62,944 nt of DNA from Terriglobales bacterium (GTDB lineage: Bacteria; Acidobacteriota; Terriglobia; Terriglobales; Acidobacteriaceae). Position 1 is the stretch's first letter; every line of letters begins with the position of its first letter. The notes under the pieces were generated by a model. It was not told the origin of the DNA. It did not search any database and saw only the letters and a list, made by a program, of their open reading frames with translations. This document shows positions 24,083 through 26,773 of the stretch, piece after piece. The stretch spans positions 1-62,944 of the forward strand of contig JASHOU010000213.1 of NCBI GenBank assembly GCA_030038475.1. The letters run 5' to 3'. Made by a program: the position numbers and the translations under genes.

Positions 24083-24712
24083 TTATTGACCAGTGCTGGC
24101 GCTGGTCGCTGTTATTGTCATGGGTCGGCTCAACTCCATCACCAACTCTGTGCCTGCTGGGAGAGTCGCAGAGCGGTGCTTGCCGAGCCAATGACTGACG
24201 GTGAGTGTAGCTGCGACGGCTCCGCCAATGAGCAAGCCTTTGCCGCCAGCAGCCAATCCACCAACGAGCATTCCGCCGCCGGTGCCCATACCGATTTCTG
24301 TGAGGTCTTTGCCGTCGTAGCCGGCACCTTTGAACTGGCCTTCGCGGTTGACGTCGGTGCCGTGACCGGCATTGGTATCAACCAGCGTCGCATTCAGCGT
24401 GAGCCTGTCTCCATTAGGAAAAATCAGGTTCTCAGGAAAGATGGCGATGGTGGGCTTGCCGGCGATGCGTCGCGGCTCGTTCGCCTTGGTGACGCGGCCC
24501 TCGACCGTGGTACCGATGGGAATGACGGTTTTGCCGTCAATGACGACCGGATCGGTGACTCGGGCGGAGAATGGATCTCCGGCTTTGGAGCTGAAGGTAG
24601 CAAGCGTAGTTTCAAGCTTCATCTTGACGGCGGTGCCGGTAGGCAGTGCGGTTTGCGCCCACGCGAAACTTGCCATCAGGATGCACGGCACGATTGAAAG
24701 AGTCTTTTTCAT
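24083..24712 (-). CDS. Secreted protein of unknown function
   Basis: 209-residue exported protein: signal peptide MKKTLSIVPCILMASFAWAQ, then a beta-rich domain with two similar segments (LPTGTAVKMKLETTL and LPAGTELVMELSRPM). Such segments occur in TrbI/VirB10-like periplasmic repeats and many acidobacterial secreted proteins. A glycine-rich hydrophobic stretch (GMGTGGGMLVGGLAAGGKG) resembles a glycine-zipper membrane segment. No enzyme motif is visible. It lies 35 bp downstream of the start of... no shared operon signal with the peroxiredoxin-like gene can be proven, although both are minus-strand and 28 bp apart. Confidence 0.7.
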   Translation of the reverse strand: MKKTLSIVPCILMASFAWAQTALPTGTAVKMKLETTLATFSSKAGDPFSARVTDPVVIDGKTVIPIGTTVEGRVTKANEPRRIAGKPTIAIFPENLIFPNGDRLTLNATLVDTNAGHGTDVNREGQFKGAGYDGKDLTEIGMGTGGGMLVGGLAAGGKGLLIGGAVAATLTVSHWLGKHRSATLPAGTELVMELSRPMTITATSASTGQ

Positions 24713-24740
24713 ATCGCCTCCAAATGGAATTTCTTATGCT

Positions 24741-25247
24741 TCAAAGCTGCTGCAAGGCTTCCAGAATGTGTTCGAGCGGCGCGCGGTCAAGCTGATTGTC
24801 GCCGCGATAGATGTAACGCACGATTCCGCCGCGATCGCCGTCACGAACAATAATCAGCGTGGCCGGATGCGCGATGTTGATAGCGTCTTTGCCGAAGGCG
24901 TGATGGAGTCCATAGGCTTTGGTCACGGCGCGATCCTCATCGAGCAGGAAGACGCTGGCGATGGGATGTTTCTCCAGAAATTTTCCCGGCCGCCAAACGC
25001 CGTCGCGTTTCTCCGCGGCGATGAACGCCAACCCCGCGCCTGCCGCTTCAATTTCCTCGTTTCGTGACTCCAACTGAGTCATGCGTTTCACGCAGTTCGG
25101 TCACCATGTGCCACGAACAAACTCAAGAATCAGCTTGTCCTGCGCGAGCAAGCCGGCGAGGGTGAACGTTCCCTCGCGGTTCGCGGCTTGCAAAGAAAAA
25201 TCGGGAGCCAGCGAACCGATCTCCAGAGTGTCGGTGCGGTTCTGCAT
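24741..25247 (-). CDS. Peroxiredoxin-like protein, candidate selenoprotein (in-frame TGA)
   Basis: Thioredoxin-fold peroxiredoxin (AhpC/TSA/redoxin) of 168 residues if read through a TGA at 25101-25103. Upstream of the TGA the frame reads LAPDFSL...ILEFVRGTW; downstream, in the same frame, PNCVKRMTQL and the rest of the domain, ending EHILEALQQL. The TGA therefore replaces the first Cys of WCPNC, giving U-P-N-C at residue 49. Both halves are well preserved and no frameshift is needed. A perfect hairpin follows the TGA (separate entry). An ATG at 25247 (MQNRTDTLEIG) is the likely start; a TTG at 25286 is in frame. The alternatives are a nonsense mutation or a base error. Confidence 0.8.
25065..25103 (-). 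promoter_or_regulatory. Candidate bacterial SECIS hairpin with its UGA
   Basis: On the mRNA, UGACUC and GAGUCA form a perfect 6-bp stem around the 5-nt loop AGUUG. The loop starts 25 nt after the UGA. Bacterial SECIS elements sit inside the coding region with the apical loop roughly 16-37 nt after UGA, and usually carry a G in the first two loop bases, often followed by GU. This hairpin meets each of those rules. It lies within codons of the peroxiredoxin-like gene. Confidence 0.65.
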
Positions 25248-25348
25248 ATTGAATTCGACTTTAAGCGAGGTAGGAATCGGGAACAATAACGGATGCGGTA
25301 CCGGGGATGGCCAAATTGAGCAATCGTCGGGATATGTCCGAACGCCGC

Positions 25349-26773
<1,425 letters not shown>

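Follow-up and report, generated by a model that had tools for sequence, protein, structure and literature searches.

A predicted UxxC peroxiredoxin-like selenoprotein of Acidobacteriota, encoded almost exclusively with an in-frame TGA

The minus strand of the window, i.e. the whole 62,944-nucleotide stretch of Terriglobales DNA analyzed here, very probably carries a bacterial selenoprotein gene in which a UGA conserved at a cysteine column would be read as selenocysteine (Sec). This assignment is based on the conservation of the TGA in homologous sequences, the presence in the window genome of the genes for Sec decoding, a conserved bacterial SECIS hairpin and purifying selection on the codons downstream of the TGA. 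Additionally, it appears somewhat likely that the gene belongs to a distinct, nearly Sec-only peroxiredoxin-like (Prx-like) subfamily that is old in Acidobacteriota, places a thioredoxin-type UxxC/Pro site on a peroxiredoxin scaffold, lies beside enolase in one large family, has Cys in the sole case of Sec-gene loss and exhibits a shifted SECIS register with a retained loop in distant clades.

Read from 25247 to 24741, the sequence forms a single 168-codon Redoxin/AhpC-TSA gene, which begins with an ATG at 25247-25245, ends with a TGA at 24743-24741 and has the TGA at 25103-25101 as its sole interruption (Table 1). With this TGA translated as Sec, the protein reads MQNRTDTLEIGSLAPDF...EFVRGTW-U-PNCVKRM...EALQQL up to the TGA stop and matches the Pfam families Redoxin (5.4e-20, residues 11-153) and AhpC-TSA (2.8e-16, residues 10-137); for the upstream ORF alone (61 aa), no Pfam match is obtained at 0.001. 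A preliminary description of this DNA had claimed a peroxiredoxin-like domain broken only by the TGA, located at the first Cys of a WCPNC motif, and had predicted that standard gene calling would split the gene. These claims are borne out on the minus strand, a specification that the description had lacked: the motif reads RGTW[U]PNC, and the plain ORF list contains a 61-residue ORF up to the TGA and a 116-residue ORF after it. The plus-strand reading of the same positions was rejected, as its translation yields no sensible protein. By eye, no signal peptide is apparent at the N terminus, and the encoded protein is probably cytosolic. Since the ORF list splits the gene and the window protein stayed below the cut-off of every NCBIfam model in a scan, the gene is probably mis-annotated in the genomes of soil Acidobacteriota.

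Table 1. Positions of the predicted selenoprotein gene, its elements and neighbours in the window, and of further in-frame TGA genes in the window genome and a family member genome.
Feature	Position	Strand	Basis
Complete predicted selenoprotein gene, 168 codons + TGA stop, Redoxin/AhpC-TSA domain	24741..25247	-	ORF, Pfam match, orthologs
In-frame TGA, predicted Sec (U49) that opens the UPNC motif	25101..25103	-	same column in 30/30 aligned orthologs
Codon TGC for Cys52, the residue presumed to resolve with Sec49	25092..25094	-	invariant 30/30, role inferred
Bacterial SECIS hairpin (UGACUC-AGUUG-GAGUCA) with 25 nt between UGA and loop	25065..25081	-	orthologs, folding
Codon for Pro128, presumably a cis-proline of thioredoxin type in place of the peroxiredoxin Arg	24864..24866	-	invariant 30/30
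Downstream neighbour, small conserved gene recurring beside the selenoprotein gene	24083..24712	-	ORF list, loci compared
Presumed enolase ORF, divergently transcribed neighbour	25427..26773	+	ORF list, recurrence; close by in the majority of same-family loci
Second UxxC Prx-like gene, one TGA (FFRGHW-U-PYC)	L007, G000:C212:13383-13823	-	window genome
SelD with in-frame TGA (VKAAG-U-ASK)	L026, G000:C204:62519-63454		window genome
In-frame TGA redoxin (FYRGYW-U-PFC)	L074, G135:C31		family member genome

The conservation of the TGA can be followed through three sets of homologous sequences, all of which are assemblies. The window's family was covered by 150 genomes, 49 of which contain a match at E 1e-10 or better, comprising 40 close orthologs (E 5.2e-44 or better), two fragments (G001 and G061) and seven weaker matches. 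Exactly one TGA is present in 39 of the 40 close orthologs, and the fortieth, in genome G067, has TGC. A search of 396 genomes of the phylum, in which nine candidates were scored per genome so that misses are possible, yielded 15 matches to the profile at E 1e-25 or better, all with one TGA; they span seven families, with five matches in the window's family and ten outside. The profile has Cys at this column and therefore does not favour TGA forms. Next to these genome searches, a contig scan with two patterns, one of which (EFLRGTWC) could have found Cys forms having that motif, returned 37 loci. One of them (L111) encodes a Bcp-like protein from Wenzhouxiangella, and the other 36, partly on contigs shared with the 150 family genomes, are Acidobacteriota relatives with TGA in 35 cases and TGC in L106; their records are labelled as metagenome bins of Acidobacteriaceae, Acidobacteriales, Terriglobia, Terriglobales, Acidobacteria or Acidobacteriota and, once, as Edaphobacter aggregans. 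The preliminary description had left open whether homologues carry Cys or TGA at this column, and the answer is TGA, save in one genome without SelA and SelB hits. The extracted set used below consists of 62 distinct sequences, 61 with TGA and one with TGC, and leaves L069, L103, L109 and L071-L074 outside; L070, whose frame is disrupted, is part of this set and of the hairpin comparison, and was left out of the tree. Damage is also seen in individual copies: the frame is disrupted in L070 (downstream) and in L109/L069 (upstream in L109), and in L103 assembly Ns precede the TGA; all of these copies retain both the TGA and the hairpin.

The genes required for Sec decoding, whose presence the preliminary description had proposed to verify, are all found in the window genome (4.46 Mb in 216 contigs, 98.4% complete, 3.47% contamination). 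SelA (532.6 bits), SelB (377.1) and SelD (361) score above cut-off, as does one tRNA-Sec (68 bits), to which ARAGORN assigns the anticodon UCA. SelD contains an in-frame TGA itself, and is therefore probably a selenoprotein too. The specificity of these models differs, as SelA is above cut-off in one of 14 control genomes and the weakly specific tRNA-Sec model in five of 14, Caulobacter and Thermus composti among them. SelB is above cut-off in 85 or 86 of the 150 family genomes, in a search limited to at most eight candidates per genome, so that misses are again possible. Of the 39 TGA-ortholog genomes, 34 have SelB above cut-off, as opposed to 51 or 52 of the remaining 111, to which G067 and the two fragments belong; from these hand counts, which ignore kinship, a Fisher test gives p 5e-6 to 9e-6. 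Of the five remaining TGA-ortholog genomes, all with SelA and tRNA-Sec hits, G036 (two TGA in the stretch) and G077 contain pieces of SelB; in G092, G071 and G029, SelB was not found and only EF-Tu-like hits were obtained, which may be due to an assembly gap or a divergent SelB.

The preliminary description had further proposed a perfect 6-bp stem at the 20th nt past the UGA, with a loop AGUUG after 25 nt. Both features are confirmed, and the 39 nt past the UGA do fold into this hairpin. The 50 nt including the UGA fold unremarkably (z -1.5; 16 of 200 shuffles are equally or more stable), with a minimum-energy structure that differs from the described hairpin. Evidence for a hairpin beyond chance is instead provided by a comparison of 54 distinct orthologs with a synonymous-codon null, from which L060 was left out because of its TGC and L118-L124 because their hairpins lie in another register. 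In these orthologs, 265 of 270 pairs of a five-pair stem are formed and 49 of 54 stems are complete. Synonymous shuffling, repeated 2000 times, leaves 184 +/- 6 pairs (at most 204) and 3.4 +/- 1.8 complete stems (at most 11), so that protein conservation and average codon use do not explain the hairpin. Sliding the partner strand by 1-3 nt reduces the pairs to 28-126 of 270. Ala, where it is the residue, is encoded by GCT in 35 of 43 cases versus a background of 12%, and loop position 2 is G, followed by G or U, in all 54 main-register orthologs. Changes on both sides are seen at pair 22-34 (G-C, G-U or A-U) and at pair 24-32 (U-A in 46, C-G in two, G-C in one and a C-A mismatch in five), with hardly any variation at the other three stem pairs. 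Given the mismatch in five of 54 stems and the three near-invariant pairs, the covariation counts are few, and they refer to sequences rather than events. Along the gene, the mean folding energy of 58 sequences reaches its minimum in the 39-nt stretch that follows the UGA (-12.9 versus -5.2 to -11.4 in other parts), which is supportive but modest backing for the hairpin.

According to the sections available of a 2026 review, the bacterial SECIS model comprises a loop of 3-9 nt, a stem of 4-16 bp, an MFE at or below -7.5 kcal/mol, a G at loop position 1 or 2 (next base usually G/U), and a UGA-loop distance of 16-37 nt (PMC13188914). The window hairpin lies within all of these terms with its 6-bp stem, 5-nt loop, loop G and 25 nt between UGA and loop. 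The energy term holds when the 39 nt downstream of the UGA are folded (window -11.5, with all 54 orthologs passing); the 17-nt hairpin alone has -6.4, so that the outcome depends on the stretch to which the model refers. An Rfam search of 24700-25500 returned only sR44, far below its gathering score. Outside the main register, the distant loci L119-L122 share a 6-pair stem with a 4-nt [A/G]GUU loop in one shifted register, built from largely different stem bases. Candidate hairpins of L118, L123 and L124 (f63/f85 clade) present a loop [A/G]GUUC after 16 nt. As the L123 candidate has only four pairs by reading of the sequence and other pairings of 8 bp exist, a slide of the SECIS by three codons toward the UGA is suggested at most. 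These sequences thereby suggest a changed SECIS register in distant clades, perhaps by such a slide in one of them, with retention of the loop.

The single Cys ortholog offers a view of the reverse situation. Genome G067 (L060/L106, the one labelled Edaphobacter aggregans) yields neither SelA nor SelB hits at 100% estimated completeness and 6% contamination. Its tRNA-Sec-like hit of 50.2 bits (G067:C135:29685-29774) is a relict or a false hit, in view of the control genomes that exceed the cut-off of this model. The hairpin is decayed, with two of five stem pairs kept, and enolase and the small neighbour gene are also located near the gene. In the midpoint-rooted tree, the G067 sequence is placed inside the 51-row Sec clade of the window's family (99/98), within a 10-row group of its own with modest support (88/72). 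This one case reads as a Sec-to-Cys change after the loss of decoding, and the converse, SelB in genomes with the TGA, holds less tidily (34 of 39). For enzyme assays, the G067 ortholog would supply the Cys half of a naturally occurring Sec/Cys pair.

A nonsense mutation in a Cys-type gene, leaving a pseudogene, or a sequencing error would likewise break the frame into the two pieces of the ORF list, and damaged copies do exist, with frame disruption in G001 and G009 and an assembly N in L103. This explanation is extremely improbable in light of the recurrence of the TGA in 61 of 62 distinct sequences, and also in the L103 and L109 copies, and it is at odds with the conserved hairpin and with purifying selection downstream of the TGA. 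There, dN/dS is 0.06-0.18 over at most 88 codons for the eight of nine relatives in which it was computable, and the 21 codons upstream give 0.05-0.43 in eight pairs (both from ungapped alignments and simple counting). The downstream half, whose decay the preliminary description had named as a sign against its proposal, is intact and under purifying selection. Since an open frame alone does not fix the identity of the inserted residue, the UGA could also be read as an amino acid other than Sec, through general reassignment or near-cognate read-through. This is highly improbable, given that the gene's own stop is UGA, as are those of 41 of the 62 extracted sequences (one out of frame), that Sec genes are present in the window genome, that the hairpin is under selection, and that the sole TGC ortholog found belongs to a genome in which neither SelA nor SelB was hit. 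On the recurrence of the TGA, selection, the hairpin and the Sec genes, the readings as a pseudogene, a sequencing error or a generally reassigned UGA were all rejected. The conserved codon, the SECIS hairpin and the decoding genes point instead to probable Sec in the protein itself, and the initial proposal of a UxxC peroxiredoxin-like selenoprotein gains support from the Sec genes, the TGA homologues and the intact downstream half.

An AlphaFold2 model, generated from a 30-row alignment with C in place of Sec, has a pLDDT of 91.6 and a pTM of 0.89, and positions residue 49 directly before helix 50-60 and Pro128 before strand 129-135. Among solved structures, its closest folds are those of peroxiredoxins, with Bcp4 (3hjp) at Z 22.1 and an rmsd of 2.1 over 153, and the best profile matches among solved structures are 2cx3 (2.1e-15) and ResA 3c71 (2.5e-11). 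In the alignment with 2cx3, RGTWUPNC stands opposite PAAFSPVC, so that Sec49 faces Ser and Cys52 faces a Cys that we take to be the peroxidatic one. Pro128 faces an Arg of 2cx3, presumably the catalytic Arg of peroxiredoxins, a correspondence made by sequence alone in a region (residues 111-130) of lower model confidence; a Pro at this place would presumably be the thioredoxin cis-Pro. None of Arg45, Gly46, Thr47, Trp48, residue 49, Cys52 and Pro128 varies among the 30 aligned orthologs. Peroxiredoxins are characterized by the signature PxxxT/SxxC plus a catalytic Arg; here, Arg45 replaces the Pro and Sec49 the Thr/Ser, and the Cys is retained. The preliminary label "peroxiredoxin" is therefore upheld for the fold and for a UxxC selenoprotein, and has to give way to "peroxiredoxin-like" in the absence of the signature and with UxxC at the active site. 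The protein is best filed as a Prx-like UxxC oxidoreductase, i.e. a peroxiredoxin fold without the peroxiredoxin signature.

In the proposed mechanism, SelB and Sec-tRNA would decode the UGA at 25103-25101 as Sec under the direction of the hairpin at 25081-25065, and the terminal UGA, which has no such hairpin, would end translation. The resulting active site Sec49-Pro-Asn-Cys52 would be presented on a peroxiredoxin-type thioredoxin fold, most likely with Sec49 as the attacking nucleophile that reduces a peroxide or a disulfide. Cys52 would resolve the intermediate to a selenenylsulfide, to be reduced in turn by thioredoxin or a similar donor. This distribution of catalytic roles, a thioredoxin-like chemistry in which Sec49 attacks and Cys52 resolves, is reasonably likely. 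The selenoprotein might also act as a peroxidase in the manner of a peroxiredoxin, in which case Cys52 would be peroxidatic and Sec49 a helper or resolving residue, an option favoured by the Bcp4 fold match and by the alignment of the invariant Cys52 with the presumed peroxidatic Cys of 2cx3. It is unlikely considering the replacement of the signature Pro and Thr/Ser, the invariant Pro128 at the Arg position of the 2cx3 alignment, and the location of Sec at residue 49: in UxxC/CxxC enzymes, the first position of the motif is the first attacker.

Across the window positions 24083-26773, the ORF that we name enolase from its sequence, the selenoprotein gene, the small gene and often a further gene that we take to be GH57-like form a grouping that recurs in most same-family loci. 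Within the fetched flanks, enolase is present in 23 of 30 loci of L030-L059, eight of 11 of L060-L070 and 32 of 36 of L075-L110, where the sets overlap and flanks extend at most 1.5 to 3 kb, so that absence is not proof. In the ten distant loci L115-L124, the grouping is absent and enolase was found in none of the fetched flanks. Two other redoxin genes with an in-frame TGA were encountered, L007 in the window genome and L074 in a family member genome. The scanned part of L007 remains below the NCBIfam cut-offs, and for that of L074 the best model is SelL-related (54.9 versus 120 bits).

Several known systems resemble the predicted protein. PrxQ/Bcp and ResA are among its best sequence and fold matches; Bcp carries the PxxxT/SxxC signature and ResA is a membrane-anchored CxxC oxidoreductase, neither being known to contain Sec. 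The best curated model is the SelL-related redox protein NF040769, to which every one of the 30 aligned orthologs gives a match with an E-value no higher than 0.001 (lowest 4e-14); the window protein scores 41.6 bits against a cut-off of 120, and the values for the other 29 members are E-values only, without cut-off comparison. PrxU (NF040737) shares the Pfam domain and is matched weakly by 15 of 30 orthologs. In the sections available of two sources, its Sec is part of a TxxU motif (PMC13188914; PMC1088965), whereas the Sec of the window protein sits three residues earlier, in UxxC. For Acidobacteria, the accessible part of a 2006 survey counts four selenoproteins of three families (PMC1794560), and that of the deep-Sep paper (2025) reports three known selenoproteins in Occallatibacter riparius (PMC12013277). 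The window selenoprotein may be among those counted; in the main-text portions of this literature, supplementary tables being outside its scope, Acidobacteriota selenoproteins appear as numbers and this branch is not described. The closest counterparts are the UxxC Prx-like thiol:disulfide oxidoreductases (PF00578) and the UxxC "Redoxin family protein" (PF08534), which share the Redoxin/AhpC-TSA domain and the UxxC site and are listed among predicted families in the available sections of the 2026 review (PMC13188914). UxxC redoxins are also described as Prx-like 1 and 3 in the GOS paper (PMC2398784), and the Sargasso paper mentions UXXC instead of TXXU among previously known families (PMC1088965); as far as these excerpts go, UxxC Prx-like selenoproteins were a known family by 2005, and the kind is therefore already known. 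The predicted protein would be an additional member of these selenoproteins, nearly Sec-only as far as searched. Its unusual trait is the near-absence of Cys forms, with one among 62 distinct sequences, and a branch of this sort might be overlooked by search methods, even if Cys redoxins are found at a distance. Compared by description, the known UxxC families differ in exactly this respect: the GOS excerpts give 2,740 Cys homologues for Prx-like 1 and 2,608 for Prx-like 3 (PMC2398784), whereas one Cys member was found in the branch of the window.
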